The notes below the pieces were generated by a model. It was not told where the DNA came from, ran no database searches, and saw only the letters and a list, made by a program, of their open reading frames with translations. A DNA stretch of 64,000 nucleotides from Branchiostoma lanceolatum (Eukaryota > Chordata > Leptocardii > Amphioxiformes > Branchiostomatidae): assembly GCF_035083965.1 (NCBI RefSeq), contig NC_089735.1:9140001-9204000 (forward strand), written 5' to 3'. Every line of letters starts with the position of its first letter. Positions within the stretch are counted from its first letter, which is position 1. A program made the translations under genes and the position numbers. Positions 179 through 51,744 of this stretch are shown piece after piece.

Positions 179-1580
179 TGTCTGGGAACATAAAGCGAAC
201 CTCCCTCTCTGATGACGAATAACTGTCGCTACCGTGCACTGCGTTCCTCTGGTCGTCTGTTCCGTAGATTGCACGTAGACTACGTTTGGAAATAAAAAGG
301 CAGATATGCTCGTCAGTCCTATGAGAAATACTGTGTGCATAAACAGAAACTCTCAAATATTTGGTATAAACTAGAAATTGTACTGACTATCAAAAGCCCC
401 ATGGGCATGAGGGGAAGTAGTACACCCGGGAATCAAACCTGGGCCAGCCAGCGCACAAACCCAATGTACTTACCACTAAGTTAAAAGGACCTGGACCAGT
501 TTAAGCTATAGACTGGTCAGTAACTGGCACTTGAATTGAAACACGCTGTTACAGAGGCAAGGGCAGAGATGGTAGACTTCACCACCCCTTCATGTTGGTC
601 AAACACACACACACACACACACACATGTACACACACACATGTACCCACAGTCAAGCCACAAACAACAAGTAAAAATCAAGTCTACATAGTCTGGCATTCA
701 ATCTCCAAGCAGATGTTGGGAGGCAAAAATCGTAACGTTTTCTTGTCATAGCTGCCCGTTTGTTTCAACATCACATACCTGTCGGGATGCGTCTCCCTGG
801 CCTTGTACGTGTTGGTGGGTCCAATCAGGTCTCTCCAGTACCCTATACACTTGTCTCGTGCCAGGACCATGGCCATGATGGGTCCACTGCTCATGTACCC
901 CACCAGACTGGGGAAGAACATCTTGCCGTAGTGTTCTGCATAGAAGTCACTGGCCTGCTCTGGGGTAAGGTGCACTTTTCTTTTCTATATGGGGAAGAAA
1001 TGAAGTGAAGAATTAATATCTTAGAGCTCATTTGTGCAAGTATGAATTTTCTAAATATGTACTGTACTTCAAAAAGTGACATTTAATAAGATCTTTAAAA
1101 ATTGAACAGGCCGGAACTTAAATCTTGAAGAAAGAGCCTTAAATTTCTGCCTACATGTGTCTTTTGTTTTCGTCCTCTAAATGTTGAGGTCTAATATTAT
1201 ACGGAATAGACTTTTGTAGCCCTAAAATGTTTCATGTGCATGTCTTAAATTGCATAGAGATAGATGGCACTGAACGTCTATTATAATTAGCTCTAATATG
1301 ATACTTTCAGGAGTACTTAGTCTCTTTTTAATATCACTTGATGTAATAAAAACTGAACTTTAAGAGATGAAACTGTTTCGGGATCATTTTTACCTGAAGA
1401 ATGGTGAACCCAGATCGCAGTATGATGTCTTCTATCTCCTCAGCCTTGCCGATGGCATCAGGCTTGATGAGTGCCAAGGTCCGCTCCACATAGATCTGGG
1501 GAGGGTCCATGGACACTTCTAGCTGGTCTTGTGCCTGCATGGCGGCCTTAGACGTGCTAGGCTGGGTAGTTGTCGTCTCG
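179..1580 (-). CDS. NME5: NME5-like nucleoside diphosphate kinase homologue, partial (N-terminal and central NDK domain)
   Basis: Three minus-strand exons are seen: 1580-1394 (ATG at 1540), 984-779 and 279-179. All junctions are GT/AG and the frame is continuous (49 codons; 68 codons plus 2 bases; 1 base plus 33 codons plus 1). The start region reads VSMDPPQIYVERTLALIKPD, followed by EEIEDIILRSGFTILQ. The second exon has YGKMFFPSLVGYMSSGP, and the third has IYGTDDQRNAVHGSDS. The motif NAVHGSDS holds the histidine that is phosphorylated in active NDP kinases. This order and wording match the NME5 family, known from ciliary radial spokes and sperm. The first exon begins at a splice acceptor (AG at 1581-1582), so a 5' UTR exon should lie further right, towards or inside the satellite array. 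The C-terminal part, including the expected DPY30-type segment, would lie left of base 1. NME5 assignment is by recall of the family. Confidence 0.9.
395..485 (-). repeat. tRNA-derived SINE head
   Basis: On the minus strand a Pol III A-box-like TTAGTGGTAAGT (complement of 468-479) is followed by a B-box-like GGTTTGATTCC (complement of 429-439). I cannot draw a convincing full cloverleaf, so this is better read as a tRNA-derived SINE or tRNA pseudogene in an NME5 intron than as a functional tRNA. Confidence 0.55.
603..640. repeat. (CA)n microsatellite
   Basis: A run of CA dinucleotides interrupted by ATGT, inside an NME5 intron. Short open frames across it are artefacts of low complexity. Confidence 0.9.
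699..720. repeat. Dispersed terminal motif AATCTCCAAGCAGATGTTGG
   Basis: The same motif, in either orientation, recurs near 21138, 21211, 37693 and 50773. It is probably the end of one interspersed family of the MITE type. Confidence 0.55.
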
Positions 1581-1967
1581 CTAAGGCAGAGAAAGTTTAA
1601 GAAAGGTGAGTTAGTGTACTGTACATCAACACTGCCGTGTCCCCCGTTGCTAGGACTGGAGAACTATGTTTGGACCTAATTCTGGCACATACCAAAACTC
1701 AAACAAGGAGGAAAAATATAATTTTCACATAGACTCACAACAAACCCTCAACCAATTTTACCCTCTACTCAATGATATATGATTTAATTTTGTGTTAATA
1801 CAAAAATAACTGAGATTAGTTAGAAAATGTACTGTTTATTTGGGATAATTGTCTCCTCCCTACTATCAGTTTGGTATTTCCCAATAGTGTTCTGCGCAGG
1901 GTCAGAGGGCCATATTTCCCGCCATGCTTTGCGTGGCTTATGGTGGGGTTACTCGAGGTCATTTAAG
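1581..1967. other. NME5 5' side between its first seen exon and the satellite array
   Basis: No open reading frame with exon-like borders is evident. The stretch holds the polypyrimidine tract of the NME5 exon acceptor (near 1583-1605) and should contain part of a first intron or the promoter. The cue GTTGCTAGG near 1646 is only a half X-box. The array begins after TTAAG at 1963-1967. Confidence 0.5.
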
Positions 1968-2744
1968 GTTGCAGACCACAGTATTTCTCCTATAGGGATT
2001 TATATAGTTAAGGATCCCAAGGTGAGATGCTTCGACGCTTGAAAATTTATAGAAAGGTGCAGAATTAGGGTACCAGATTTTTATATGCTTGACTTCAAGG
2101 TTCAATCTACAAAATATCTGCAAAATGAGGTTGAATTTGCCGGCTCGTTCTCTTTTAAAAGCCACTTTGATATGCCCCCCGGCGGAGGTCACCGTACTGC
2201 AGGCGACTTACAGTAGTCGGGCGGTAACAATATCCAGGCGCGAATCCAACCCGACCGAACAAACATCGTAATCAAACTCGTACTGTCTCAAAACTGACGT
2301 ATTCCTCTACCATTCACCACAGTTTCAGCCTCGCTAACGTGCACAGAAGATAAACTATGGCCTTTTCAAGTAATGTGACGCACTACTTCATACCCGAACT
2401 ACTATTGTCCACGGGGGTCGCCCATTAATACTGTGTTCTGCGACCTTAAGACGACCTTGACCTTGGTTTTCTTTTGTTCATGCAATGTAACAGGTTTAGT
2501 TGAAGAAGTGTACCAAAGCTTTTTGCAAACATCCGAACGGTTGCCGAGATATCGCCAGCTTTGCACTTCAGGACCCGGCATAGGGGAAGACCCAGGGCAA
2601 GGCCTGTATGACGGGCCATTTAGCGCTCTCATTATCTAGACAAAATTACTATTCTGGTGGGTTTTTTTCCGTGGAAGTTATCATTACTGTATATTCTTAA
2701 GTTCTAAGTGATTTTAGGTCAGGTTCATGGTTAGTTACGACGCA

Positions 2745-2756
2745 GGGGGGGGGGGG
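2745..2756 (+). repeat. Variable G homopolymer in the B segment (first copy)
   Basis: Each B has an uninterrupted G run between CGCA and AGAAGCGG. Counts read by eye for the 21 copies in order are 12, 17, 16, 17, 17, 19, 12, 19, 13, 14, 18, 13, 14, 16, 17, 17, 16, 16, 16, 16 and 15. These runs explain nearly all length differences between units. Homopolymer counts are also sensitive to sequencing error. Confidence 0.85.
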
Positions 2757-2819
2757 AGAAGCGGTGTCCGGGTCCACACCAAGTCCTATAGTTAAGGATA
2801 GGGGGCGGTCTTAGAGGCC

Positions 2820-2833
2820 GTTGCCATGGCAAC
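2820..2833. promoter_or_regulatory. Perfect palindromic RFX X-box, first of 21 copies in the array
   Basis: GTTGCCATGGCAAC lies inside an 18-bp perfect palindrome, CCGTTGCCATGGCAACGG (2818-2835), in every B segment. Other copies start at 3325, 4312, 5300, 6288, 6795, 7778, 8285, 9269, 10254, 10760, 11744, 12729, 13233, 14221, 15209, 16196, 17183, 18170, 19157 and 20143. The sequence matches the classical RFX-factor X-box (two inverted GTTGCC half sites). Binding is inferred from the motif only. Confidence 0.7.
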
Positions 2834-5800
2834 GGCGGGTCTGGCGGCAACAAAAACGACCGATTTCAAGTGAGTCGACGTCAATTACTGATACACCAGT
2901 AAAATTTGACCGAATGCAACGTTTATGGCCAATCCCCGCTGGGGGTTAAGACGACCTTGACCTTGGTTTTCTTTTGTTCATGCAATGTAACAGGTTTAGT
3001 TGAAGAAGTGTACCAAAGCTTTTTGCAAACATCCGAACGGTTGCCGAGATATCGCCAGCTTTGCACTTCAGGACCCGGCATAGGGGAAGACCCAGGGCAA
3101 GGCCTGTATGACGGGCCATTTAGCGCTCTCATTATCTAGACAAAATTACTATTCTGGTGGGTTTTTTTCCGTGGAAGTTATCATTACTGTATATTCTTAA
3201 GTTCTAAGTGATTTTAGGTCAGGTTCATGGTTAGTTACGACGCAGGGGGGGGGGGGGGGGGAGAAGCGGTGTCCGGGTCCACACCAAGTCCTATAGTTAA
3301 GGATAGGGGGCGGTCTTAGAGGCCGTTGCCATGGCAACGGCGGGTCTGGCGGCAACAAAAACGACCGATTTCAAGTGAGTCGACGTCAATTACTGATACA
3401 CCAGTAAAATTTGACCGAATGCAACGTTTATGGCCAATCCCCGCTGGGGGTTAAGGTTGCAGACCACAGTATTTCTCCTATAGGGATTTATATAGTTAAG
3501 GATCCCAAGGTGAGATGCTTCGACGCTTGAAAATTTATAGAAAGGTGCAGAATTAGGGTACCAGATTTTTATATGCTTGACTTCAAGGTTCAATCTACAA
3601 AATATCTGCAAAATGAGGTTGAATTTGCCGGCTCGTTCTCTTTTAAAAGCCACTTTGATATGCCCCCCGGCGGAGGTCACCGTACTGCAGGCGACTTACA
3701 GTAGTCGGGCGGTAACAATATCCAGGCGCGAATCCAACCCGACCGAACAAACATCGTAATCAAACTCGTACTGTCTCAAAACTGACGTATTCCTCTACCA
3801 TTCACCACAGTTTCAGCCTCGCTAACGTGCACAGAAGATAAACTATGGCCTTTTCAAGTAATGTGACGCACTACTTCATACCCGAACTACTATTGTCCAC
3901 GGGGGTCGCCCATTAATACTGTGTTCTGCGACCTTAAGACGACCTTGACCTTGGTTTTCTTTTGTTCATGCAATGTAACAGGTTTAGTTGAAGAAGTGTA
4001 CCAAAGCTTTTTGCAAACATCCGAACGGTTGCCGAGATATCGCCAGCTTTGCACTTCAGGACCCGGCATAGGGGAAGACCCAGGGCAAGGCCTGTATGAC
4101 GGGCCATTTAGCGCTCTCATTATCTAGACAAAATTACTATTCTGGTGGGTTTTTTTCCGTGGAAGTTATCATTACTGTATATTCTTAAGTTCTAAGTGAT
4201 TTTAGGTCAGGTTCATGGTTAGTTACGACGCAGGGGGGGGGGGGGGGGAGAAGCGGTGTCCGGGTCCACACCAAGTCCTATAGTTAAGGATAGGGGGCGG
4301 TCTTAGAGGCCGTTGCCATGGCAACGGCGGGTCTGGCGGCAACAAAAACGACCGATTTCAAGTGAGTCGACGTCAATTACTGATACACCAGTAAAATTTG
4401 ACCGAATGCAACGTTTATGGCCAATCCCCGCTGGGGGTTAAGGTTGCAGACCACAGTATTTCTCCTATAGGGATTTATATAGTTAAGGATCCCAAGGTGA
4501 GATGCTTCGACGCTTGAAAATTTATAGAAAGGTGCAGAATTAGGGTACCAGATTTTTATATGCTTGACTTCAAGGTTCAATCTACAAAATATCTGCAAAA
4601 TGAGGTTGAATTTGCCGGCTCGTTCTCTTTTAAAAGCCACTTTGATATGCCCCCCGGCGGAGGTCACCGTACTGCAGGCGACTTACAGTAGTCGGGCGGT
4701 AACAATATCCAGGCGCGAATCCAACCCGACCGAACAAACATCGTAATCAAACTCGTACTGTCTCAAAACTGACGTATTCCTCTACCATTCACCACAGTTT
4801 CAGCCTCGCTAACGTGCACAGAAGATAAACTATGGCCTTTTCAAATAATGTGACGCACTACTTCATACCCGAACTACTATTGTCCACGGGGGTCGCCCAT
4901 TAATACTGTGTTCTGCGACCTTAAGACGACCTTGACCTTGGTTTTCTTTTGTTCATGCAATGTAACAGGTTTAGTTGAAGAAGTGTACCAAAGCTTTTTG
5001 CAAACATCCGAACGGTTGCCGAGATATCGCCAGCTTTGCACTTCAGGACCCGGCATAGGGGAAGACCCAGGGCAAGGCCTGTATGACGGGCCATTTAGCG
5101 CTCTCATTATCTAGACAAAATTACTATTCTGGTGGGTTTTTTTCCGTGGAAGTTATCATTACTGTATATTCTTAAGTTCTAAGTGATTTTAGGTCAGGTT
5201 CATGGTTAGTTACGACGCAGGGGGGGGGGGGGGGGGAGAAGCGGTGTCCGGGTCCACACCAAGTCCTATAGTTAAGGATAGGGGGCGGTCTTAGAGGCCG
5301 TTGCCATGGCAACGGCGGGTCTGGCGGCAACAAAAACGACCGATTTCAAGTGAGTCGACGTCAATTACTGATACACCAGTAAAATTTGACCGAATGCAAC
5401 GTTTATGGCCAATCCCCGCTGGGGGTTAAGGTTGCAGACCACAGTATTTCTCCTATAGGGATTTATATAGTTAAGGATCCCAAGGTGAGATGCTTCGACG
5501 CTTGAAAATTTATAGAAAGGTGCAGAATTAGGGTACCAGATTTTTATATGCTTGACTTCAAGGTTCAATCTACAAAATATCTGCAAAATGAGGTTGAATT
5601 TGCCGGCTCGTTCTCTTTTAAAAGCCACTTTGATATGCCCCCCGGCGGAGGTCACCGTACTGCAGGCGACTTACAGTAGTCGGGCGGTAACAATATCCAG
5701 GCGCGAATCCAACCCGACCGAACAAACATCGTAATCAAACTCGTACTGTCTCAAAACTGACGTATTCCTCTACCATTCACCACAGTTTCAGCCTCGCTAA

Positions 5801-8800
5801 CGTGCACAGAAGATAAACTATGGCCTTTTCAAATAATGTGACGCACTACTTCATACCCGAACTACTATTGTCCACGGGGGTCGCCCATTAATACTGTGTT
5901 CTGCGACCTTAAGACGACCTTGACCTTGGTTTTCTTTTGTTCATGCAATGTAACAGGTTTAGTTGAAGAAGTGTACCAAAGCTTTTTGCAAACATCCGAA
6001 CGGTTGCCGAGATATCGCCAGCTTTGCACTTCAGGACCCGGCATAGGGGAAGACCCAGGGCAAGGCCTGTATGACGGGCCATTTAGCGCTCTCATTATCT
6101 AGACAAAATTACTATTCTGGTGGGTTTTTTTCCGTGGAAGTTATCATTACTGTATATTCTTAAGTTCTAAGTGATTTTAGGTCAGGTTCATGGTTAGTTA
6201 CGACGCAGGGGGGGGGGGGGGGGGAGAAGCGGTGTCCGGGTCCACACCAAGTCCTATAGTTAAGGATAGGGGGCGGTCTTAGAGGCCGTTGCCATGGCAA
6301 CGGCGGGTCTGGCGGCAACAAAAACGACCGATTTCAAGTGAGTCGACGTCAATTACTGATACACCAGTAAAATTTGACCGAATGCAACGTTTATGGCCAA
6401 TCCCCGCTGGGGGTTAAGACGACCTTGACCTTGGTTTTCTTTTGTTCATGCAATGTAACAGGTTTAGTTGAAGAAGTGTACCAAAGCTTTTTGCAAACAT
6501 CCGAACGGTTGCCGAGATATCGCCAGCTTTGCACTTCAGGACCCGGCATAGGGGAAGACCCAGGGCAAGGCCTGTATGACGGGCCATTTAGCGCTCTCAT
6601 TATCTAGACAAAATTACTATTCTGGTGGGTTTTTTTCCGTGGAAGTTATCATTACTGTATATTCTTAAGTTCTAAGTGATTTTAGGTCAGGTTCATGGTT
6701 AGTTACGACGCAGGGGGGGGGGGGGGGGGGGAGAAGCGGTGTCCGGGTCCACACCAAGTCCTATAGTTAAGGATAGGGGGCGGTCTTAGAGGCCGTTGCC
6801 ATGGCAACGGCGGGTCTGGCGGCAACAAAAACGACCGATTTCAAGTGAGTCGACGTCAATTACTGATACACCAGTAAAATTTGACCGAATGCAACGTTTA
6901 TGGCCAATCCCCGCTGGGGGTTAAGGTTGCAGACCACAGTATTTCTCCTATAGGGATTTATATAGTTAAGGATCCCAAGGTGAGATGCTTCGACGCTTGA
7001 AAATTTATAGAAAGGTGCAGAATTAGGGTACCAGATTTTTATATGCTTGACTTCAAGGTTCAATCTACAAAATATCTGCAAAATGAGGTTGAATTTGCCG
7101 GCTCGTTCTCTTTTAAAAGCCACTTTGATATGCCCCCCGGCGGAGGTCACCGTACTGCAGGCGACTTACAGTAGTCGGGCGGTAACAATATCCAGGCGCG
7201 AATCCAACCCGACCGAACAAACATCGTAATCAAACTCGTACTGTCTCAAAACTGACGTATTCCTCTACCATTCACCACAGTTTCAGCCTCGCTAACGTGC
7301 ACAGAAGATAAACTATGGCCTTTTCAAGTAATGTGACGCACTACTTCATACCCGAACTACTATTGTCCACGGGGGTCGCCCATTAATACTGTGTTCTGCG
7401 ACCTTAAGACGACCTTGACCTTGGTTTTCTTTTGTTCATGCAATGTAACAGGTTTAGTTGAAGAAGTGTACCAAAGCTTTTTGCAAACATCCGAACGGTT
7501 GCCGAGATATCGCCAGCTTTGCACTTCAGGACCCGGCATAGGGGAAGACCCAGGGCAAGGCCTGTATGACGGGCCATTTAGCGCTCTCATTATCTAGACA
7601 AAATTACTATTCTGGTGGGTTTTTTTCCGTGGAAGTTATCATTACTGTATATTCTTAAGTTCTAAGTGATTTTAGGTCAGGTTCATGGTTAGTTACGACG
7701 CAGGGGGGGGGGGGAGAAGCGGTGTCCGGGTCCACACCAAGTCCTATAGTTAAGGATAGGGGGCGGTCTTAGAGGCCGTTGCCATGGCAACGGCGGGTCT
7801 GGCGGCAACAAAAACGACCGATTTCAAGTGAGTCGACGTCAATTACTGATACACCAGTAAAATTTGACCGAATGCAACGTTTATGGCCAATCCCCGCTGG
7901 GGGTTAAGACGACCTTGACCTTGGTTTTCTTTTGTTCATGCAATGTAACAGGTTTAGTTGAAGAAGTGTACCAAAGCTTTTTGCAAACATCCGAACGGTT
8001 GCCGAGATATCGCCAGCTTTGCACTTCAGGACCCGGCATAGGGGAAGACCCAGGGCAAGGCCTGTATGACGGGCCATTTAGCGCTCTCATTATCTAGACA
8101 AAATTACTATTCTGGTGGGTTTTTTTCCGTGGAAGTTATCATTACTGTATATTCTTAAGTTCTAAGTGATTTTAGGTCAGGTTCATGGTTAGTTACGACG
8201 CAGGGGGGGGGGGGGGGGGGGAGAAGCGGTGTCCGGGTCCACACCAAGTCCTATAGTTAAGGATAGGGGGCGGTCTTAGAGGCCGTTGCCATGGCAACGG
8301 CGGGTCTGGCGGCAACAAAAACGACCGATTTCAAGTGAGTCGACGTCAATTACTGATACACCAGTAAAATTTGACCGAATGCAACGTTTATGGCCAATCC
8401 CCGCTGGGGGTTAAGGTTGCAGACCACAGTATTTCTCCTATAGGGATTTATATAGTTAAGGATCCCAAGGTGAGATGCTTCGACGCTTGAAAATTTATAG
8501 AAAGGTGCAGAATTAGGGTACCAGATTTTTATATGCTTGACTTCAAGGTTCAATCTACAAAATATCTGCAAAATGAGGTTGAATTTGCCGGCTCGTTCTC
8601 TTTTAAAAGCCACTTTGATATGCCCCCCGGCGGAGGTCACCGTACTGCAGGCGACTTACAGTAGTCGGGCGGTAACAATATCCAGGCGCGAATCCAACCC
8701 GACCGAACAAACATCGTAATCAAACTCGTACTGTCTCAAAACTGACGTATTCCTCTACCATTCACCACAGTTTCAGCCTCGCTAACGTGCACAGAAGATA

Positions 8801-11800
8801 AACTATGGCCTTTTCAAGTAATGTGACGCACTACTTCATACCCGAACTACTATTGTCCACGGGGGTCGCCCATTAATACTGTGTTCTGCGACCTTAAGAC
8901 GACCTTGACCTTGGTTTTCTTTTGTTCATGCAATGTAACAGGTTTAGTTGAAGAAGTGTACCAAAGCTTTTTGCAAACATCCGAACGGTTGCCGAGATAT
9001 CGCCAGCTTTGCACTTCAGGACCCGGCATAGGGGAAGACCCAGGGCAAGGCCTGTATGACGGGCCATTTAGCGCTCTCATTATCTAGACAAAATTACTAT
9101 TCTGGTGGGTTTTTTTCCGTGGAAGTTATCATTACTGTATATTCTTAAGTTCTAAGTGATTTTAGGTCAGGTTCATGGTTAGTTACGACGCAGGGGGGGG
9201 GGGGGAGAAGCGGTGTCCGGGTCCACACCAAGTCCTATAGTTAAGGATAGGGGGCGGTCTTAGAGGCCGTTGCCATGGCAACGGCGGGTCTGGCGGCAAC
9301 AAAAACGACCGATTTCAAGTGAGTCGACGTCAATTACTGATACACCAGTAAAATTTGACCGAATGCAACGTTTATGGCCAATCCCCGCTGGGGGTTAAGG
9401 TTGCAGACCACAGTATTTCTCCTATAGGGATTTATATAGTTAAGGATCCCAAGGTGAGATGCTTCGACGCTTGAAAATTTATAGAAAGGTGCAGAATTAG
9501 GGTACCAGATTTTTATATGCTTGACTTCAAGGTTCAATCTACAAAATATCTGCAAAATGAGGTTGAATTTGCCGGCTCGTTCTCTTTTAAAAGCCACTTT
9601 GATATGCCCCCCGGCGGAGGTCACCGTACTGCAGGCGACTTACAGTAGTCGGGCGGTAACAATATCCAGGCGCGAATCCAACCCGACCGAACAAACATCG
9701 TAATCAAACTCGTACTGTCTCAAAACTGACGTATTCCTCTACCATTCACCACAGTTTCAGCCTCGCTAACGTGCACAGAAGATAAACTATGGCCTTTTCA
9801 AGTAATGTGACGCACTACTTCATACCCGAACTACTATTGTCCACGGGGGTCGCCCATTAATACTGTGTTCTGCGACCTTAAGACGACCTTGACCTTGGTT
9901 TTCTTTTGTTCATGCAATGTAACAGGTTTAGTTGAAGAAGTGTACCAAAGCTTTTTGCAAACATCCGAACGGTTGCCGAGATATCGCCAGCTTTGCACTT
10001 CAGGACCCGGCATAGGGGAAGACCCAGGGCAAGGCCTGTATGACGGGCCATTTAGCGCTCTCATTATCTAGACAAAATTACTATTCTGGTGGGTTTTTTT
10101 CCGTGGAAGTTATCATTACTGTATATTCTTAAGTTCTAAGTGATTTTAGGTCAGGTTCATGGTTAGTTACGACGCAGGGGGGGGGGGGGGAGAAGCGGTG
10201 TCCGGGTCCACACCAAGTCCTATAGTTAAGGATAGGGGGCGGTCTTAGAGGCCGTTGCCATGGCAACGGCGGGTCTGGCGGCAACAAAAACGACCGATTT
10301 CAAGTGAGTCGACGTCAATTACTGATACACCAGTAAAATTTGACCGAATGCAACGTTTATGGCCAATCCCCGCTGGGGGTTAAGACGACCTTGACCTTGG
10401 TTTTCTTTTGTTCATGCAATGTAACAGGTTTAGTTGAAGAAGTGTACCAAAGCTTTTTGCAAACATCCGAACGGTTGCCGAGATATCGCCAGCTTTGCAC
10501 TTCAGGACCCGGCATAGGGGAAGACCCAGGGCAAGGCCTGTATGACGGGCCATTTAGCGCTCTCATTATCTAGACAAAATTACTATTCTGGTGGGTTTTT
10601 TTCCGTGGAAGTTATCATTACTGTATATTCTTAAGTTCTAAGTGATTTTAGGTCAGGTTCATGGTTAGTTACGACGCAGGGGGGGGGGGGGGGGGGAGAA
10701 GCGGTGTCCGGGTCCACACCAAGTCCTATAGTTAAGGATAGGGGGCGGTCTTAGAGGCCGTTGCCATGGCAACGGCGGGTCTGGCGGCAACAAAAACGAC
10801 CGATTTCAAGTGAGTCGACGTCAATTACTGATACACCAGTAAAATTTGACCGAATGCAACGTTTATGGCCAATCCCCGCTGGGGGTTAAGGTTGCAGACC
10901 ACAGTATTTCTCCTATAGGGATTTATATAGTTAAGGATCCCAAGGTGAGATGCTTCGACGCTTGAAAATTTATAGAAAGGTGCAGAATTAGGGTACCAGA
11001 TTTTTATATGCTTGACTTCAAGGTTCAATCTACAAAATATCTGCAAAATGAGGTTGAATTTGCCGGCTCGTTCTCTTTTAAAAGCCACTTTGATATGCCC
11101 CCCGGCGGAGGTCACCGTACTGCAGGCGACTTACAGTAGTCGGGCGGTAACAATATCCAGGCGCGAATCCAACCCGACCGAACAAACATCGTAATCAAAC
11201 TCGTACTGTCTCAAAACTGACGTATTCCTCTACCATTCACCACAGTTTCAGCCTCGCTAACGTGCACAGAAGATAAACTATGGCCTTTTCAAATAATGTG
11301 ACGCACTACTTCATACCCGAACTACTATTGTCCACGGGGGTCGCCCATTAATACTGTGTTCTGCGACCTTAAGACGACCTTGACCTTGGTTTTCTTTTGT
11401 TCATGCAATGTAACAGGTTTAGTTGAAGAAGTGTACCAAAGCTTTTTGCAAACATCCGAACGGTTGCCGAGATATCGCCAGCTTTGCACTTCAGGACCCG
11501 GCATAGGGGAAGACCCAGGGCAAGGCCTGTATGACGGGCCATTTAGCGCTCTCATTATCTAGACAAAATTACTATTCTGGTGGGTTTTTTTCCGTGGAAG
11601 TTATCATTACTGTATATTCTTAAGTTCTAAGTGATTTTAGGTCAGGTTCATGGTTAGTTACGACGCAGGGGGGGGGGGGGAGAAGCGGTGTCCGGGTCCA
11701 CACCAAGTCCTATAGTTAAGGATAGGGGGCGGTCTTAGAGGCCGTTGCCATGGCAACGGCGGGTCTGGCGGCAACAAAAACGACCGATTTCAAGTGAGTC

Positions 11801-14800
11801 GACGTCAATTACTGATACACCAGTAAAATTTGACCGAATGCAACGTTTATGGCCAATCCCCGCTGGGGGTTAAGGTTGCAGACCACAGTATTTCTCCTAT
11901 AGGGATTTATATAGTTAAGGATCCCAAGGTGAGATGCTTCGACGCTTGAAAATTTATAGAAAGGTGCAGAATTAGGGTACCAGATTTTTATATGCTTGAC
12001 TTCAAGGTTCAATCTACAAAATATCTGCAAAATGAGGTTGAATTTGCCGGCTCGTTCTCTTTTAAAAGCCACTTTGATATGCCCCCCGGCGGAGGTCACC
12101 GTACTGCAGGCGACTTACAGTAGTCGGGCGGTAACAATATCCAGGCGCGAATCCAACCCGACCGAACAAACATCGTAATCAAACTCGTACTGTCTCAAAA
12201 CTGACGTATTCCTCTACCATTCACCACAGTTTCAGCCTCGCTAACGTGCACAGAAGATAAACTATGGCCTTTTCAAGTAATGTGACGCACTACTTCATAC
12301 CCGAACTACTATTGTCCACGGGGGTCGCCCATTAATACTGTGTTCTGCGACCTTAAGACGACCTTGACCTTGGTTTTCTTTTGTTCATGCAATGTAACAG
12401 GTTTAGTTGAAGAAGTGTACCAAAGCTTTTTGCAAACATCCGAACGGTTGCCGAGATATCGCCAGCTTTGCACTTCAGGACCCGGCATAGGGGAAGACCC
12501 AGGGCAAGGCCTGTATGACGGGCCATTTAGCGCTCTCATTATCTAGACAAAATTACTATTCTGGTGGGTTTTTTTCCGTGGAAGTTATCATTACTGTATA
12601 TTCTTAAGTTCTAAGTGATTTTAGGTCAGGTTCATGGTTAGTTACGACGCAGGGGGGGGGGGGGGAGAAGCGGTGTCCGGGTCCACACCAAGTCCTATAG
12701 TTAAGGATAGGGGGCGGTCTTAGAGGCCGTTGCCATGGCAACGGCGGGTCTGGCGGCAACAAAAACGACCGATTTCAAGTGAGTCGACGTCAATTACTGA
12801 TACACCAGTAAAATTTGACCGAATGCAACGTTTATGGCCAATCCCCGCTGGGGGTTAAGACGACCTTGACCTTGGTTTTCTTTTGTTCATGCAATGTAAC
12901 AGGTTTAGTTGAAGAAGTGTACCAAAGCTTTTTGCAAACATCCGAACGGTTGCCGAGATATCGCCAGCTTTGCACTTCAGGACCCGGCATAGGGGAAGAC
13001 CCAGGGCAAGGCCTGTATGACGGGCCATTTAGCGCTCTCATTATCTAGACAAAATTACTATTCTGGTGGGTTTTTTTCCGTGGAAGTTATCATTACTGTA
13101 TATTCTTAAGTTCTAAGTGATTTTAGGTCAGGTTCATGGTTAGTTACGACGCAGGGGGGGGGGGGGGGGAGAAGCGGTGTCCGGGTCCACACCAAGTCCT
13201 ATAGTTAAGGATAGGGGGCGGTCTTAGAGGCCGTTGCCATGGCAACGGCGGGTCTGGCGGCAACAAAAACGACCGATTTCAAGTGAGTCGACGTCAATTA
13301 CTGATACACCAGTAAAATTTGACCGAATGCAACGTTTATGGCCAATCCCCGCTGGGGGTTAAGGTTGCAGACCACAGTATTTCTCCTATAGGGATTTATA
13401 TAGTTAAGGATCCCAAGGTGAGATGCTTCGACGCTTGAAAATTTATAGAAAGGTGCAGAATTAGGGTACCAGATTTTTATATGCTTGACTTCAAGGTTCA
13501 ATCTACAAAATATCTGCAAAATGAGGTTGAATTTGCCGGCTCGTTCTCTTTTAAAAGCCACTTTGATATGCCCCCCGGCGGAGGTCACCGTACTGCAGGC
13601 GACTTACAGTAGTCGGGCGGTAACAATATCCAGGCGCGAATCCAACCCGACCGAACAAACATCGTAATCAAACTCGTACTGTCTCAAAACTGACGTATTC
13701 CTCTACCATTCACCACAGTTTCAGCCTCGCTAACGTGCACAGAAGATAAACTATGGCCTTTTCAAATAATGTGACGCACTACTTCATACCCGAACTACTA
13801 TTGTCCACGGGGGTCGCCCATTAATACTGTGTTCTGCGACCTTAAGACGACCTTGACCTTGGTTTTCTTTTGTTCATGCAATGTAACAGGTTTAGTTGAA
13901 GAAGTGTACCAAAGCTTTTTGCAAACATCCGAACGGTTGCCGAGATATCGCCAGCTTTGCACTTCAGGACCCGGCATAGGGGAAGACCCAGGGCAAGGCC
14001 TGTATGACGGGCCATTTAGCGCTCTCATTATCTAGACAAAATTACTATTCTGGTGGGTTTTTTTCCGTGGAAGTTATCATTACTGTATATTCTTAAGTTC
14101 TAAGTGATTTTAGGTCAGGTTCATGGTTAGTTACGACGCAGGGGGGGGGGGGGGGGGAGAAGCGGTGTCCGGGTCCACACCAAGTCCTATAGTTAAGGAT
14201 AGGGGGCGGTCTTAGAGGCCGTTGCCATGGCAACGGCGGGTCTGGCGGCAACAAAAACGACCGATTTCAAGTGAGTCGACGTCAATTACTGATACACCAG
14301 TAAAATTTGACCGAATGCAACGTTTATGGCCAATCCCCGCTGGGGGTTAAGGTTGCAGACCACAGTATTTCTCCTATAGGGATTTATATAGTTAAGGATC
14401 CCAAGGTGAGATGCTTCGACGCTTGAAAATTTATAGAAAGGTGCAGAATTAGGGTACCAGATTTTTATATGCTTGACTTCAAGGTTCAATCTACAAAATA
14501 TCTGCAAAATGAGGTTGAATTTGCCGGCTCGTTCTCTTTTAAAAGCCACTTTGATATGCCCCCCGGCGGAGGTCACCGTACTGCAGGCGACTTACAGTAG
14601 TCGGGCGGTAACAATATCCAGGCGCGAATCCAACCCGACCGAACAAACATCGTAATCAAACTCGTACTGTCTCAAAACTGACGTATTCCTCTACCATTCA
14701 CCACAGTTTCAGCCTCGCTAACGTGCACAGAAGATAAACTATGGCCTTTTCAAATAATGTGACGCACTACTTCATACCCGAACTACTATTGTCCACGGGG

Positions 14801-17800
14801 GTCGCCCATTAATACTGTGTTCTGCGACCTTAAGACGACCTTGACCTTGGTTTTCTTTTGTTCATGCAATGTAACAGGTTTAGTTGAAGAAGTGTACCAA
14901 AGCTTTTTGCAAACATCCGAACGGTTGCCGAGATATCGCCAGCTTTGCACTTCAGGACCCGGCATAGGGGAAGACCCAGGGCAAGGCCTGTATGACGGGC
15001 CATTTAGCGCTCTCATTATCTAGACAAAATTACTATTCTGGTGGGTTTTTTTCCGTGGAAGTTATCATTACTGTATATTCTTAAGTTCTAAGTGATTTTA
15101 GGTCAGGTTCATGGTTAGTTACGACGCAGGGGGGGGGGGGGGGGGAGAAGCGGTGTCCGGGTCCACACCAAGTCCTATAGTTAAGGATAGGGGGCGGTCT
15201 TAGAGGCCGTTGCCATGGCAACGGCGGGTCTGGCGGCAACAAAAACGACCGATTTCAAGTGAGTCGACGTCAATTACTGATACACCAGTAAAATTTGACC
15301 GAATGCAACGTTTATGGCCAATCCCCGCTGGGGGTTAAGGTTGCAGACCACAGTATTTCTCCTATAGGGATTTATATAGTTAAGGATCCCAAGGTGAGAT
15401 GCTTCGACGCTTGAAAATTTATAGAAAGGTGCAGAATTAGGGTACCAGATTTTTATATGCTTGACTTCAAGGTTCAATCTACAAAATATCTGCAAAATGA
15501 GGTTGAATTTGCCGGCTCGTTCTCTTTTAAAAGCCACTTTGATATGCCCCCCGGCGGAGGTCACCGTACTGCAGGCGACTTACAGTAGTCGGGCGGTAAC
15601 AATATCCAGGCGCGAATCCAACCCGACCGAACAAACATCGTAATCAAACTCGTACTGTCTCAAAACTGACGTATTCCTCTACCATTCACCACAGTTTCAG
15701 CCTCGCTAACGTGCACAGAAGATAAACTATGGCCTTTTCAAATAATGTGACGCACTACTTCATACCCGAACTACTATTGTCCACGGGGGTCGCCCATTAA
15801 TACTGTGTTCTGCGACCTTAAGACGACCTTGACCTTGGTTTTCTTTTGTTCATGCAATGTAACAGGTTTAGTTGAAGAAGTGTACCAAAGCTTTTTGCAA
15901 ACATCCGAACGGTTGCCGAGATATCGCCAGCTTTGCACTTCAGGACCCGGCATAGGGGAAGACCCAGGGCAAGGCCTGTATGACGGGCCATTTAGCGCTC
16001 TCATTATCTAGACAAAATTACTATTCTGGTGGGTTTTTTTCCGTGGAAGTTATCATTACTGTATATTCTTAAGTTCTAAGTGATTTTAGGTCAGGTTCAT
16101 GGTTAGTTACGACGCAGGGGGGGGGGGGGGGGAGAAGCGGTGTCCGGGTCCACACCAAGTCCTATAGTTAAGGATAGGGGGCGGTCTTAGAGGCCGTTGC
16201 CATGGCAACGGCGGGTCTGGCGGCAACAAAAACGACCGATTTCAAGTGAGTCGACGTCAATTACTGATACACCAGTAAAATTTGACCGAATGCAACGTTT
16301 ATGGCCAATCCCCGCTGGGGGTTAAGGTTGCAGACCACAGTATTTCTCCTATAGGGATTTATATAGTTAAGGATCCCAAGGTGAGATGCTTCGACGCTTG
16401 AAAATTTATAGAAAGGTGCAGAATTAGGGTACCAGATTTTTATATGCTTGACTTCAAGGTTCAATCTACAAAATATCTGCAAAATGAGGTTGAATTTGCC
16501 GGCTCGTTCTCTTTTAAAAGCCACTTTGATATGCCCCCCGGCGGAGGTCACCGTACTGCAGGCGACTTACAGTAGTCGGGCGGTAACAATATCCAGGCGC
16601 GAATCCAACCCGACCGAACAAACATCGTAATCAAACTCGTACTGTCTCAAAACTGACGTATTCCTCTACCATTCACCACAGTTTCAGCCTCGCTAACGTG
16701 CACAGAAGATAAACTATGGCCTTTTCAAATAATGTGACGCACTACTTCATACCCGAACTACTATTGTCCACGGGGGTCGCCCATTAATACTGTGTTCTGC
16801 GACCTTAAGACGACCTTGACCTTGGTTTTCTTTTGTTCATGCAATGTAACAGGTTTAGTTGAAGAAGTGTACCAAAGCTTTTTGCAAACATCCGAACGGT
16901 TGCCGAGATATCGCCAGCTTTGCACTTCAGGACCCGGCATAGGGGAAGACCCAGGGCAAGGCCTGTATGACGGGCCATTTAGCGCTCTCATTATCTAGAC
17001 AAAATTACTATTCTGGTGGGTTTTTTTCCGTGGAAGTTATCATTACTGTATATTCTTAAGTTCTAAGTGATTTTAGGTCAGGTTCATGGTTAGTTACGAC
17101 GCAGGGGGGGGGGGGGGGGAGAAGCGGTGTCCGGGTCCACACCAAGTCCTATAGTTAAGGATAGGGGGCGGTCTTAGAGGCCGTTGCCATGGCAACGGCG
17201 GGTCTGGCGGCAACAAAAACGACCGATTTCAAGTGAGTCGACGTCAATTACTGATACACCAGTAAAATTTGACCGAATGCAACGTTTATGGCCAATCCCC
17301 GCTGGGGGTTAAGGTTGCAGACCACAGTATTTCTCCTATAGGGATTTATATAGTTAAGGATCCCAAGGTGAGATGCTTCGACGCTTGAAAATTTATAGAA
17401 AGGTGCAGAATTAGGGTACCAGATTTTTATATGCTTGACTTCAAGGTTCAATCTACAAAATATCTGCAAAATGAGGTTGAATTTGCCGGCTCGTTCTCTT
17501 TTAAAAGCCACTTTGATATGCCCCCCGGCGGAGGTCACCGTACTGCAGGCGACTTACAGTAGTCGGGCGGTAACAATATCCAGGCGCGAATCCAACCCGA
17601 CCGAACAAACATCGTAATCAAACTCGTACTGTCTCAAAACTGACGTATTCCTCTACCATTCACCACAGTTTCAGCCTCGCTAACGTGCACAGAAGATAAA
17701 CTATGGCCTTTTCAAATAATGTGACGCACTACTTCATACCCGAACTACTATTGTCCACGGGGGTCGCCCATTAATACTGTGTTCTGCGACCTTAAGACGA

Positions 17801-20273
17801 CCTTGACCTTGGTTTTCTTTTGTTCATGCAATGTAACAGGTTTAGTTGAAGAAGTGTACCAAAGCTTTTTGCAAACATCCGAACGGTTGCCGAGATATCG
17901 CCAGCTTTGCACTTCAGGACCCGGCATAGGGGAAGACCCAGGGCAAGGCCTGTATGACGGGCCATTTAGCGCTCTCATTATCTAGACAAAATTACTATTC
18001 TGGTGGGTTTTTTTCCGTGGAAGTTATCATTACTGTATATTCTTAAGTTCTAAGTGATTTTAGGTCAGGTTCATGGTTAGTTACGACGCAGGGGGGGGGG
18101 GGGGGGAGAAGCGGTGTCCGGGTCCACACCAAGTCCTATAGTTAAGGATAGGGGGCGGTCTTAGAGGCCGTTGCCATGGCAACGGCGGGTCTGGCGGCAA
18201 CAAAAACGACCGATTTCAAGTGAGTCGACGTCAATTACTGATACACCAGTAAAATTTGACCGAATGCAACGTTTATGGCCAATCCCCGCTGGGGGTTAAG
18301 GTTGCAGACCACAGTATTTCTCCTATAGGGATTTATATAGTTAAGGATCCCAAGGTGAGATGCTTCGACGCTTGAAAATTTATAGAAAGGTGCAGAATTA
18401 GGGTACCAGATTTTTATATGCTTGACTTCAAGGTTCAATCTACAAAATATCTGCAAAATGAGGTTGAATTTGCCGGCTCGTTCTCTTTTAAAAGCCACTT
18501 TGATATGCCCCCCGGCGGAGGTCACCGTACTGCAGGCGACTTACAGTAGTCGGGCGGTAACAATATCCAGGCGCGAATCCAACCCGACCGAACAAACATC
18601 GTAATCAAACTCGTACTGTCTCAAAACTGACGTATTCCTCTACCATTCACCACAGTTTCAGCCTCGCTAACGTGCACAGAAGATAAACTATGGCCTTTTC
18701 AAATAATGTGACGCACTACTTCATACCCGAACTACTATTGTCCACGGGGGTCGCCCATTAATACTGTGTTCTGCGACCTTAAGACGACCTTGACCTTGGT
18801 TTTCTTTTGTTCATGCAATGTAACAGGTTTAGTTGAAGAAGTGTACCAAAGCTTTTTGCAAACATCCGAACGGTTGCCGAGATATCGCCAGCTTTGCACT
18901 TCAGGACCCGGCATAGGGGAAGACCCAGGGCAAGGCCTGTATGACGGGCCATTTAGCGCTCTCATTATCTAGACAAAATTACTATTCTGGTGGGTTTTTT
19001 TCCGTGGAAGTTATCATTACTGTATATTCTTAAGTTCTAAGTGATTTTAGGTCAGGTTCATGGTTAGTTACGACGCAGGGGGGGGGGGGGGGGAGAAGCG
19101 GTGTCCGGGTCCACACCAAGTCCTATAGTTAAGGATAGGGGGCGGTCTTAGAGGCCGTTGCCATGGCAACGGCGGGTCTGGCGGCAACAAAAACGACCGA
19201 TTTCAAGTGAGTCGACGTCAATTACTGATACACCAGTAAAATTTGACCGAATGCAACGTTTATGGCCAATCCCCGCTGGGGGTTAAGGTTGCAGACCACA
19301 GTATTTCTCCTATAGGGATTTATATAGTTAAGGATCCCAAGGTGAGATGCTTCGACGCTTGAAAATTTATAGAAAGGTGCAGAATTAGGGTACCAGATTT
19401 TTATATGCTTGACTTCAAGGTTCAATCTACAAAATATCTGCAAAATGAGGTTGAATTTGCCGGCTCGTTCTCTTTTAAAAGCCACTTTGATATGCCCCCC
19501 GGCGGAGGTCACCGTACTGCAGGCGACTTACAGTAGTCGGGCGGTAACAATATCCAGGCGCGAATCCAACCCGACCGAACAAACATCGTAATCAAACTCG
19601 TACTGTCTCAAAACTGACGTATTCCTCTACCATTCACCACAGTTTCAGCCTCGCTAACGTGCACAGAAGATAAACTATGGCCTTTTCAAATAATGTGACG
19701 CACTACTTCATACCCGAACTACTATTGTCCACGGGGGTCGCCCATTAATACTGTGTTCTGCGACCTTAAGACGACCTTGACCTTGGTTTTCTTTTGTTCA
19801 TGCAATGTAACAGGTTTAGTTGAAGAAGTGTACCAAAGCTTTTTGCAAACATCCGAACGGTTGCCGAGATATCGCCAGCTTTGCACTTCAGGACCCGGCA
19901 TAGGGGAAGACCCAGGGCAAGGCCTGTATGACGGGCCATTTAGCGCTCTCATTATCTAGACAAAATTACTATTCTGGTGGGTTTTTTTCCGTGGAAGTTA
20001 TCATTACTGTATATTCTTAAGTTCTAAGTGATTTTAGGTCAGGTTCATGGTTAGTTACGACGCAGGGGGGGGGGGGGGGAGAAGCGGTGTCCGGGTCCAC
20101 ACCAAGTCCTATAGTTAAGGATAGGGGGCGGTCTTAGAGGCCGTTGCCATGGCAACGGCGGGTCTGGCGGCAACAAAAACGACCGATTTCAAGTGAGTCG
20201 ACGTCAATTACTGATACACCAGTAAAATTTGACCGAATGCAACGTTTATGGCCAATCCCCGCTGGGGGTTAAG

Positions 20274-20733
20274 GTTGCAGACCACAGTATTTCTCCTATA
20301 GGGATTTATATAGTTAAGGATCCCAAGGTGAGATGCTTCGACGCTTGAAAATTTATAGAAAGGTGCAGAATTAGGGTACCAGATTTTTATATGCTTGACT
20401 TCAAGGTTCAATCTACAAAATATCTGCAAAATGAGGTTGAATTTGCCGGCTCGTTCTCTTTTAAAAGCCACTTTGATATGCCCCCCGGCGGAGGTCACCG
20501 TACTGCAGGCGACTTACAGTAGTCGGGCGGTAACAATATCCAGGCGCGAATCCAACCCGACCGAACAAACATCGTAATCAAACTCGTACTGTCTCAAAAC
20601 TGACGTATTCCTCTACCATTCACCACAGTTTCAGCCTCGCTAACGTGCACAGAAGATAAACTATGGCCTTTTCAAATAATGTGACGCACTACTTCATACC
20701 CGAACTACTATTGTGTTCTGCGACCATATGGTT
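20274..20733. repeat. Terminal A segment with a 26-bp deletion
   Basis: The last A lacks the 26 bases that in all other copies separate CTACTATTGT from GTTCTGCGACC. It then leaves the array at GCGACC, followed by unique sequence (ATATGGTTGGAAAC), without the usual TTAAG joint. TGT is present at both edges of the missing piece, so a short-homology deletion or slippage is a simple explanation. Confidence 0.8.
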
Positions 20734-21109: not shown

Positions 21110-21255
21110 CGCGTAAAAGGCTGACTCGGTCGAACTTAACATCTGCTTGGAGATCAAGAGCAGATTTAGATGGGGGGTGATCGCGTAAAAAGCCTGACTC
21201 GGTCGAACTTAACATCTGCTTGGAATTATACAAAAGAGCAGATTTAGATGGGAAT
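21110..21255. repeat. Short tandem duplication, unit about 73 bp
   Basis: Two adjacent copies read GCGTAAAA(G/A)G-CTGACTCGG, then TCGAACTTAACATCTGCTTGG, and end AGAGCAGATTTAGATGGG. Both contain the dispersed AACATCTGCTTGG motif. Confidence 0.8.
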
Positions 21256-28880: not shown

Positions 28881-31800
28881 ATGCGGATCTTCGTTGCATT
28901 GGCAGGTAAGAATGGAGATATGATTTCCTCCTTTACCCATTTACTTTCGTTGTGGGCGTACGTCCAGTATGGTGGAAGAGGAGACAGTTTAGCAAATTGA
29001 TATCCAGATAGTTACATATTGACGATTGTAGACTAAGTGGTAATTGTGTTGTTAGAGTTGGGTAACCAAGCATGTAACCTGGTGTACATGTGGACGTATA
29101 TTTTTACCTCCATTCGTATTCTTGACAATGAATTCGTGTGTCTATAGCCATACTTGTGGTGACATGTGCCAAACAGTTGGACATCCCAATCCGCTGTTGC
29201 TTCCCCAAGGTATGGGAGGGCATGATGGCGACGGTTCAGATTGACTCGTCAGGTAAGTCACTGTCTTACCTTGTTTTTATTTTCCTATCTCTCTGGCACA
29301 TATTAGGCACTACAATCTTGTTAGCAAGTTCTATTCAAAGAAGGGTCAAGTAACAAAGCGAGTAATGTTTCTTGTCAATTAATGTTTTGATTGTTGACAA
29401 AACTTGTAAATGCTGAATCTTAATAGAGGTTGATAATAACAAATGATAGAATTATTGCATTACTCGAGTAAATGACATTAAAAGGCTCGGGATGACAGTT
29501 AACGCCATTGATGGTACTTAAAAAACACGCAGAAAAGCCAAAGAATCATGGAATCCTAAACTCCTTTGTATTTTGTTGCAGGCATGAAGTCTTCAATGCT
29601 GTCAGTCTCGTACGATTTCTCTGTTGACAGATTCGCTCTGCAGGACGTTGACATGAAGTATAGGATTGTTGTAGACTACAGCAAGGTATGAAAACTAGCT
29701 CAGTATGTGATAGGGCAGTATGACATGTCCGACATCGCAAAAATATACTTGAATCAGTGATAGAAGGAGGAGATAAAATGAAGGAAGGAAGGAAGACAAG
29801 AAGGAATGAAGGATCGCGAGGAACAATTAACAAACGAAGGAAGGACGGAAAGAAATAAAAGAAAAATGAAGGAAGGGAAAATTGAGAAAGGACGAAAGGA
29901 ATAAATGATTGAATGGAAGGAAGAATGGCTGTAGGAAGGACAAATGTCGATATATGTTGGGAGTATTGACTTGGGCAATGCAGCATTTTCACGATGATCA
30001 TCCATTGACCACTTGCTCTATTTAGATGATACAGTACGTCATCACATCAGAGGGGCTGTGTTCTGCTTCAAAAGTGCCGAATAAGGAACTGAACTGCATC
30101 CCTGGTAGGTGGGTAGTGTTCTGATCGGGAATTGCGGATGGAGAAATCTAAAATAACAAATCTAAATCTCTTATGTAGCAAAAAAATGCCAAGTAAGAAT
30201 GTTTCAAACACAAGAGAATCGAATAATCTCACCACATTTTTGACTATAGACCTCTAGCCACAGTCCCCGACCCTCAAGATGAGGATGGTACTAGGTGAGG
30301 TGAGATGCCCTTTATAGCCCTCCTCACGGCAATATAGACCCGATTGCATGTAATACAAAAAGAATGTGTTTGACAGTGCTATACGTAAGCAAATGTGCTT
30401 TATATCTCAAACGTGATCACATATTTCCAAATGTTTCAGACAACGCTACGTTTGTAGGCTCGGTTGTGTACGGTGGCCCAGGCGGTATGGTACTGGACAA
30501 GTGGAGCTATAAAGTGCACTACCCTCCCGTCACCGCAGTCATCACTGTCACTAGGGACGCCTGTGTCTATGTCAGTGAAGTGGGCGCTGGGACATTAGGC
30601 GGGGGTAGGTGTTTGATATTGTAGACGTAACGTTAAGTTACGGCGGCCATTTTGAATTTCCCAGGACCGTGCACCAAAACGAGGCTGCAATTGGCGCTCC
30701 CTACTTATAAGCCTGTATCACAGAAAAGGAAGCACCAACTGGAGCCTCGTTTTAGTGCACAGTCCCGGGAAATTCAAAATGGCCACCGTAATTGGCAAGA
30801 GGTACATTGCAACTGGAGTTCCACGATGCTATACCTCCGCCAGAAACTATTTTCTCGTTAGATATGCATGAAATGCCTCAATTTGCATGATTATATCTAA
30901 TGAAGCTCAACCTGACTAATATATGACAAAAAAATATTTAAGTTCTTTCCTCATTAACTATCCGAATAATTTCTATCCAATTGATCACCTTCTCTAACCC
31001 AATTGCATATGTCGTAATTATAAATAAAAGTCCTATCCTTGCACAGATAGCTGTTATGTCGTTATTTGTATGATCTATGTCTGTGTTAAATTTCAAGCTC
31101 TTGCAATTGAGTACATGTATTCTGAATTGATTTTTTTATCATCTGGATGAGCTGATGAAATGGATAGGTTTATTTCAGCATTCCTTTAAAGATATGGTAT
31201 CAATACCAATCGGTATTGTATATATATAATACGTAAACGTCACGAAAATCAAGTGTCTCTTGTATATCACAGAGGTTTGATACTTAACCTGTTCCACTGC
31301 AATCTTCATTTCCAGTGCCCTTCTATCGGTCCGATGAGTTTTCCAACATCACTTACGCTATCAAGGACCCAACTGTGTTTAACGTGCCCAGTCCTCCCTG
31401 TCCGTCTGACCAGGACAACAATCTGGTAGGTTTATCAATGCCCTAGTATTGATAAAATGAACAAACTTAGGGTATAGTGTTTTTTTATGTTTTAACAAAT
31501 TGTGCAAATTCCAAACAAATACTTCACAAGATTGTGCGAATCCCCCCTCCAATATTTGCAATTATGTAAACAACTTGTCTCCTATTGATAAAATGAACAT
31601 GGTCCAATGTCCTTTCAAAATTGTGGGAACTAAAAGGAAAAAAAAATTAAAAAACTATGCGAATTCCACACAAAAAATCTCAGCAATTATGTAAAGAAAT
31701 TGTCTGATATTGATAAAATGAGCAATGTATTGTGTTCTTTCATGATTTAAATGGGAACTCAACTCCAGAGACGAGTGTTCTGTTTCTGCGGATAATATTT

Positions 31801-40800: not shown

Positions 40801-43800
40801 AAACATAGGATGTCCCTGTAGCTCAATTGGTAGCAGCCTCACAGTTAAACTCCTGGTACCAATTACATGTAGTTGATAACTAGGAGATCTCGGTTCGAAA
40901 CCGGGGAAGGACATCCTGGTTGGAGCTACATTTGTCTTTCGGCAAAGATGTAAAATGGGGGTCCTGTGATCGAGGAGCAAAAAGCTGTTTGAAGTTGCTT
41001 GAAAGATTTTGTAAGTTGAAAACTTCAGAATGCGCTGTGTTATATAGGCCACAGACTGCTACCATTAGAATACAATATTCTGCAGGCAGTAGAAATGCTG
41101 TCTTGGGATTGTCATTTGTCATGTGCATGATTACCATCACAGTAGAGCTTTAGGGAAATCCTTGCTTAGTGTTTTTCTTTGAAACATTTAATCCAACATG
41201 GCATTTTTTTAGGTTATGGCAAAAGTACAGGGGAGTCCTATGAAGAAACGTCTGTTGAAAGCTGCTCTTCAGTCAAAGGAAAAGCAACTGGTGAAGTAAG
41301 CAAATAATGTGACAGTCATATATTTATCTTCTCTATATACTTGCCCATCAATTCATTTTTACTACGATTACTTGTAGATATATGATGAGGAGTCAATAAG
41401 GTTGGCGAATAATTTTCTAAGCACAAGTATTAACAAGTTACAATCAATGTTTGTCTCCTTTATACAACCTCTTGCAGGGGAATCCTCCGAACTGACACCT
41501 TCTGGGACAAGCTGTTGTTGAAGAAAGTACAGGTATGTACCAATGAGGACATGTTTCAAAGACCAGTAATATTAAAAGAGAAAAAAATATAGACTATGAA
41601 AAAAACATCATATTTTCAGTGGAGTGAAGGTTTTATACAATAATACAGATTCAGATGTAACTGCCTTTAACCTTTATAGCACACTGAAGTAGCCGTTTGG
41701 TATCCAATTCCCTACTGGTTAGAGTTAGGCAGCCGAGAGAAGGTTAATTAGATTGTGTAAGATCATCAGATTTTATAAACTCTGTGGTCTTCTTTTCCTC
41801 AGGACCAGCTTGGAGGAAGGGTCAGACTGATGTTCGTGGCAGGGGCTCCGATTTCTGGGAAGATCCTCACCTTCACCAGATGTGCCTTTGGAGCCAGTGT
41901 AAGCAGTTTTCTAAGATTATCAAATAATGGACACAGCATGCAGACACTAGAATTTCAATAAATAAACGGAATTCGATAAGTTAGCATAAATCAGATATGC
42001 AGTCCACTTTTTTAAAAGTACTTGAATCAAATAGTGTACTGCGCTCACATGTAACGACATTGTCACTTGATCAATGGAACAAAATGTGCTACATGTATAT
42101 AGGAATGGCCAGAGTATGATGCCTTGAGGAACCATTTTATCAATGAACATGAATGCAATCAAGCAATCAAGAGAACTTGTCTAAGCACTACTTCAGTGAA
42201 ACACCATGATCATCTCTTAAACTATATGTTAATCAGCCCTGGATTATTAACGTTATGAGAGTAAGTTCTAAAACTTTTGACATAATTTTTGCCATTCCCA
42301 GGTGTTTGAAGGTTATGGCCAGACAGAGGTATCCGGATCAGGTACATTCACCATCCCGGGGGACAACTCAATTGGTAAGTACACTTTAAAGCATAATGTT
42401 TCGGTACAAATCCTGACATCAACAAATACGTCTTTGTGGAGTTCTGGCTGAAAAGTTAAAGTTTCATTTTTGGTCTTCATAGTTTCCCAGTTATCACAGT
42501 CTTTTAAGCCTGACTTTAGCTGTAACCAGTGTACATGATGTTTTGACAGGTCACGTTGGAACACCGCTAGGCTGTAACCTGGTCAAACTGGTGGACGTTC
42601 CTGACATGAACTACTTCACTGAGGACAAACAGGGAGAAGTATGTTCTACATCTTATCATAACAGTAAAAGCATTCTCTAAAATATAAATGATATAATCAT
42701 ACATGTACATGTCAGGTGCTTTATCACTGTCTATTATTAGAGTGCTAATTTAGATCTTCAAAGAGAATTACCACAATATTTTGTAACTCAACTGTGAAGA
42801 ATTAAGATTTGAACTAATGTACAATGCCTTGATCTTGATAAATATTTCAGTCAAGATTATTGATGATAATGCACTCTTATGAAAGGTATTAGCAAACGCT
42901 CTATGTTAGGATTATATTTTATAAATACATTGTATATGCAATAAAATAAGGGACCTAATAGTGTGCAAATCAACCCCAGGTGTGCTTCAAGGGACCAAAC
43001 GTCTTTAAGGGCTACCTTAACGACAAGAAGAACACGGACGAGACCATTGACGGTGATGGCTGGGTGCACTCTGGAGACATCGGCATGTGGTTACCTGTAC
43101 GTACACCTGAGAAACCTCACAGCATCCAAACACGTACATTGTACCTAATGTTAGAAACCAACCTTTGATAATAATATGATGCTTACTTTATCTTTGTTAA
43201 CCACATAAAAATATGCCCTTTAGATCGAAAAAGACATCTGATTATCACTTGATATTAGTTTTTATATTACAGTTGTAGTAGTCTTAAATATCTTGAAATG
43301 TGTCTAGTGTCTTTTAATGTGACCTCTTTCATTTGCAGACAAAATGTTTTCCGCTATCTTTTTGCCTGTTGTAATGTTTTAAATTCAAACACATACAGGT
43401 TTTAGCCTTTACTATATCATTCACAATTTGTGTTTATCCAGAATGGCACTCTGAGAGTGATTGACCGTAAGAAGAGCATCTTCAAGCTGGCACAGGTGGG
43501 ATATTCTGAGTTTTAACTGTGTTAATAACTTTTATTGTGCTTTAAAGGAGTCCTTAACTCCATAGGGGGGAGTTATGTTCCAATAGATGATAATTTTAGG
43601 AAGTAAAAATGAATACTTTTTACAGTATACGATATAGTACCCACTAGTCCCGTGCGCATCAAAAAGCATTCAGTATTGTACCGAATTCCCAGGAGGCCCT
43701 CTATTTTCTGATTAATTAAATAAAACAACCTGAGCCTATGGCCTAATACAATGTGCCTGAAAAGGCCTGACAAAAGTTAGATCACAAAAAGAATGTCATG

Positions 43801-51704: not shown

Positions 51705-51744
51705 TTGACTTTCTGGCTGACAGGTAGCTTGTGACAGCTAACTG

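Follow-up and report, generated by a model that had tools for sequence, protein, structure and literature searches.

Tandem arrays of TTAA-duplicating MITEs are known from Acropora corals, where full-size copies of CMITE form tandem rows and, in one example, are separated by stretches of similar sequence (PMC2872659). According to the excerpted text of that source, replication slippage was inferred for the coral arrays, insertion took place at a TTAA between two direct repeats, and an element whose TTAA had mutated was lost (PMC2872659). In Xenopus, as far as the accessible parts of the sources go, T2-MITE/Xmix and Xstir link a Kolobok-type TTAA MITE to a tandem-repeat family (PMC6004289, PMC12628747, PMC9659126), and in Drosophila virilis the units of a young satellite come from the DNA transposon Tetris (excerpt of PMC4079207).

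The array described here lies within a window of 64,000 nucleotides of Branchiostoma lanceolatum DNA (the whole stretch analysed) and is built from two segments, A and B. Tandem TTAA-MITE arrays with spacers being already known in corals, it is a variant of that arrangement, which was the nearest published case found; the coral elements differ in their size of about 100 bp and their piggyBac CC[C/T]T ends, and an alternation of one and two spacers was not seen in the excerpted description (PMC2872659). In Xstir an internal part of the MITE was amplified, by the excerpted account, whereas in the present array each unit contains the entire element, both ends included, beside a foreign segment (PMC6004289). 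Tetris differs in being a Foldback transposon with target duplications of 8–10 bp, tentatively placed in Mutator in the part of the source available (PMC4079207). What sets the present locus apart is a complete element that alternates with one or two TTAA-bounded foreign segments, filled joints lying next to empty ones. No description of this array was found in the open-licence literature searched, and no match was obtained there for LanceleTn, the name of an amphioxus MITE. Tandem arrays of a TTAA transposon are likewise said to exist in Aedes aegypti, where Adelman in 2004 reportedly described large arrays of transgene-borne piggyBac elements.

When one A and one B were compared with the window by BLAST, exactly the 17 A and 21 B copies counted in the first-pass annotation were returned, head-to-tail and all in one orientation over about 19 kb (18.8 kb). 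Full-length copies comprised 16 of the 17 A (479 bp), the last being shortened, and all 21 B; no additional copy of either was found in the window outside the array at an E value of 1e-3. The previously reported order (ABB, AB, AB, ABB, ABB, AB, ABB, AB, ABB, seven AB and a terminal A) was recovered unchanged, copy number and order being taken from the assembly alone. The sizes given earlier, 483 bp for A and 488 bp for B, turned out to include the TTAA joint (A, 479 + 4 bp; B, 484 bp + poly-G run + 4 bp), and the edges given for the array, 1968–20733, needed correction (Table 1). It was absent from the Tandem Repeats Finder list, in which the longest period was 500. As a homogenised, non-coding, head-to-tail tandem array it has the layout of satellite DNA.

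Table 1. Positions within the window of the array, its components and the neighbouring exons
Feature	Position	Strand	Remarks
Whole array	1967–20725	+	17 A, 21 B (units: 5 ABB, 11 AB; then a terminal A)
TTAA at left edge of array	1963–1966		
First A	1967–2445	+	479 bp; terminal inverted repeats 17/19; TTAA on either side
First B	2450–2945	+	484 bp and a run of 12 G; without terminal inverted repeats
First BB joint	2946–2949		Single TTAA
Mixed ABB/AB block	1967–13362	+	Nine units; A404 = A in 3/9
Pure AB block	13363–20725	+	Seven units and terminal A; A404 = A in 8/8
Terminal A	20273–20725	+	453 bp; 26-bp deletion; followed by ATATGG
Palindrome with perfect RFX X-box core	2817–2836		20 bp; first of 21 (one per B)
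First coding exon found, NME5-like gene	1394–1580	-	Splice edges by eye
Next NME5-like exon	773–984	-	Edges by eye

Segment A starts with GGTTGCAGACCACAGTATT and, read inwards from its opposite end, with GGTCGCAGAACACAGTATT; the two agree at 17 of 19 positions, and both begin with GG beside the TTAA (GGTT and GGTC). Flanked by TTAA left and right in 16 of the 17 copies, the terminal A lacking it on the right, A has the inverted repeats and target site duplication expected of a MITE. As a control, the same scoring was applied to TTAA pairs in the DNA outside the array that were separated by 60–2,000 bp, 1,992 of them to the right and 69 to the left. The best pair on the right agreed at 16 of 19 positions and was itself a MITE-like element, the next reached 12, and the best on the left reached 10. 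Kolobok is defined by a TTAA target and RR terminal bases in the excerpted text of PMC6004289, and A has both, its ends (GGTTG and GGTCG) differing from the T2 motif AGGRR given there. From its layout, A looks like a non-autonomous TTAA-inserting DNA transposon, nearer to Kolobok than to piggyBac. Membership of piggyBac was rejected because the ends are GGTT and GGTC rather than the CC[C/T]T motif reported in the excerpt of PMC2872659. The MITE-like element that gave the best control score, at 43542–44103, is 554 bp long with TTAA on either side; its inverted ends begin with AGGAG, resembling the T2/Kolobok motif.

Several other identities were considered for the segments. B was rejected as a second inverted-repeat transposon, as its ends do not match. 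Helitrons start with TC and end with CTRR, neither of which was seen by eye. A tandem cluster of RNA genes was rejected with no Rfam match at E values up to 1 in positions 1900–5500; across the whole window no match reached the Rfam gathering score and no tRNA was found. Nor did a protein-coding repeat fit, the longest frame of the AB unit being 101 aa, on the minus strand, without a Pfam match (10 of 62 frames scanned). The two segments have in common a 13-mer, TATAGTTAAGGAT, with TTAA inside it (2003–2015 and 2787–2799; E = 0.003). In a collection of viral contigs no match was obtained for the left end of A, for the palindrome with the X-box or for 25 bp taken from B. A degenerate pattern of TTAA and inverted repeats matched one bacterial MAG in a prokaryotic contig collection where about two matches were expected; both results are uninformative on animals.

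Every one of the 38 segments has a TTAA in front of it, at the left edge as well as at the 37 inner joints, and each of the five BB joints is one TTAA, the expectation if A was never there or was lost without trace. The difference between AB and ABB is that between A present and A exactly absent at a TTAA. The two-segment reading of the first-pass annotation holds, although the TTAA at every joint and the transposon-like ends of A had been overlooked. At the left edge the order is flank, TTAA, A, and at the right edge the array stops, exact to the base, at the end of A, where ATATGG stands in place of the expected TTAA. The internal deletion of the last A lies near its right end, with 3 bp of homology at the break. 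Because of the ATATGG, neither the array nor the first A has an intact target duplication, which counts against simple insertion; trimming of an overhang at insertion, or later decay, would be guesses at the cause.

We favour, with roughly even confidence, the explanation that an A-B-A arrangement was amplified by recombination and that A was lost at a TTAA to give BB, leaving a young satellite with a mobile element at its core. The structure, the joints, the inverted ends and the near identity of the copies are observed; from them we infer the transposition, the A-B-A start, the manner in which A was lost and the sequence of events as follows. A would be a non-autonomous TTAA-inserting transposon, Kolobok-like by its GG ends, and B either the stretch of about 500 bp that separated the TTAA sites of two A copies or the passenger of an A-B-A composite. 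Out-of-register recombination between A copies, or re-insertion of an amplified circle, would have given (A-B)n-A with A at both termini. In at least one unit A would have been lost exactly at TTAA, yielding B-TTAA-B, and the resulting ABB unit would afterwards have been copied together with AB units; the uniform right block would have arisen when, late on, one AB unit expanded locally. As to how A may have been lost, slippage or an end-joining deletion between two TTAA repeats would mimic excision, and sequence alone does not separate them. This explanation is preferred because the flanking TTAA and inverted ends of A surpass all control pairs, because of the TTAA before every segment, the single TTAA at each BB and the A ends at both edges, and because of the G-run order within ABB units (below) and the coral precedent for tandem TTAA MITEs (PMC2872659, in excerpt). 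It is weakened by the ATATGG at the right edge and by the confinement of A to the array within the window.

The edges and the BB joints also bear on two other origins. A tandem B satellite with TTAA in its joints may have come first, A having inserted at one BB and spread by unequal exchange. That course of events is doubtful; the BB joint is an exact empty TTAA target, with five examples in the array, but B would be predicted at an arbitrary phase at the edges, both of which are exact A ends. Having A at both edges is natural for an A-B-A start followed by recombination between A copies and unexpected if a B satellite is older. It is also unlikely that the array arrived as one piece, grown elsewhere or as a circle and inserted by a transposase that acted on the left end of the first A and the right end of the last. 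Such an event would account for A ends at both edges, the left one at a TTAA, but not for a right edge without TTAA, and 18.8 kb would presumably be long for it.

The copies are almost uniform. With the poly-G run of B set aside, a single site varied in 18,270 compared bases, A404, which is G in six and A in 11 of the 17 A copies; the 484-bp core of B was identical in all 21 copies, with G runs of 12–19. Observed/expected CpG ratios were 1.00 for A and 0.87 for B. The left flank gave 0.47 and the near right flank 0.77, and the value for the whole of the DNA right of the array was 0.66. The high ratios of A and B fit young DNA that has yet to lose CpG, with other causes possible. The near identity of copies noted earlier is thus borne out, and recent amplification or active homogenisation, as proposed then, fits both the single variable site and the CpG ratios relative to the DNA on the right.

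Variation along the array was patterned. The left and right blocks differed in A404 (Table 1; Fisher P=0.009), in the variance of poly-G length, greater on the left (G12–19, against G15–17 on the right; Levene P=0.006), and in the placement of the five ABB units, all within the first nine of 16 (P=0.029), these P values being optimistic since the split point was picked after the data were seen. With that reservation, the two expansion histories suggested in the first-pass annotation are moderately supported. The two G runs of the five ABB units measured 12/17, 17/19, 12/19, 14/18 and 14/16; the second was longer in all five (Wilcoxon P=0.06), which suits one copied BB origin and argues against five independent excisions. 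Units 1–2, 5–6, 7–8 and 9–10 all read ABB-AB, so that ABBAB as a whole may once have served as a repeat unit. G runs that follow G-type A copies were shorter than those that follow A-type copies (P=0.011), and poly-G lengths and A404 together serve as weak tags of array history.

The array lies upstream of an NME5-like coding region, either between genes or in an upstream intron; its left TTAA is 382 bp from the exon edge at 1580, an edge placed by eye. The best solved-structure matches of exon 773–984 were chains named NME5 (nucleoside diphosphate kinase homolog 5; 8wzb_E, E = 2.7e-28), and the Pfam NDK model scored 70.4 bits in frame 682–984 and 26.4 bits, just below the cut-off of 27, in frame 1334–1663. 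To the right of the array, the plus-strand frame 30304–30621 had an ependymin match below the Pfam cut-off (E = 5.7e-5), with an earlier start near 24253 as judged by eye. The right flank holds two copies of a repeat of about 70 bp (21110–21174 and 21182–21252, 86 % identical), a 17-bp piece of which recurs inverted at 701–717, left of the array. Farther to the right are a diverged 31-bp minisatellite of 18.2 copies (47812–48380), in part with a 156-bp higher-order period, a single 681-aa open frame with BTB, BACK and Kelch domains (51742–53787), and a minisatellite of 13 25-bp units with 93 % matches (62937–63260).

Each B carries GCCGTTGCCATGGCAACGGC, in 21 copies the sole perfect palindrome of at least 16 bp found in the window. 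The loose X-box pattern is GTNRCC N0–3 RGYAAC. Each strand of every B had one occurrence (21 and 21), and the window outside the array had a single one, right of the array on the minus strand (GTCACCAGTAAC); 0.00265 occurrences per B were expected on one strand from 20,000 mononucleotide shuffles. On the minus strand at 1640–1660, a short way upstream of the first exon found of the NME5-like gene, lies TAGCAACG, which by eye we take to resemble an X-box half site. The core of the palindrome is identical to the RFX X-box printed in the accessible part of PMC4168999, and that of PMC3889689 lists NME5 as a target of Rfx2 in Xenopus. The 21 perfect candidate sites near a ciliary gene may be a coincidence; they offer a lead. 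A bolder and improbable extension would make B a native upstream stretch of NME5 with its own RFX X-box, bracketed by two TTAA transposons and recombined to 21 copies, the exact transposon loss fossilised in BB, so that an array of ciliary enhancer sites would stand beside its own gene.

Two further accounts dispense with a mobile element or with the array as assembled. An ordinary satellite, in which recombination alone was at work and the inverted ends of A and the TTAA joints are incidental, would agree with the lack of any sign of A mobility in this analysis, but is very improbable given that no control pair equalled A in TTAA and inverted ends. Least probable of all is an artefact of assembly in copy number or order, to which almost identical units and error-prone poly-G runs would be open, as the A404 alleles, the lengths of the G runs and the places of the ABB units vary along the array in a patterned way and A and B were not found elsewhere in the window.

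Satellites have often been traced to transposons, mostly at old, eroded stages. In this array the steps can still be read: the element is complete, the TTAA joints are intact, joints that hold the element lie beside ones that lack it, and mutations are almost absent. Such an array could help to distinguish excision from exchange and to date the seeding of a satellite by a MITE. Should the RFX sites in B act on NME5, a transposon would here also have multiplied a regulatory site.
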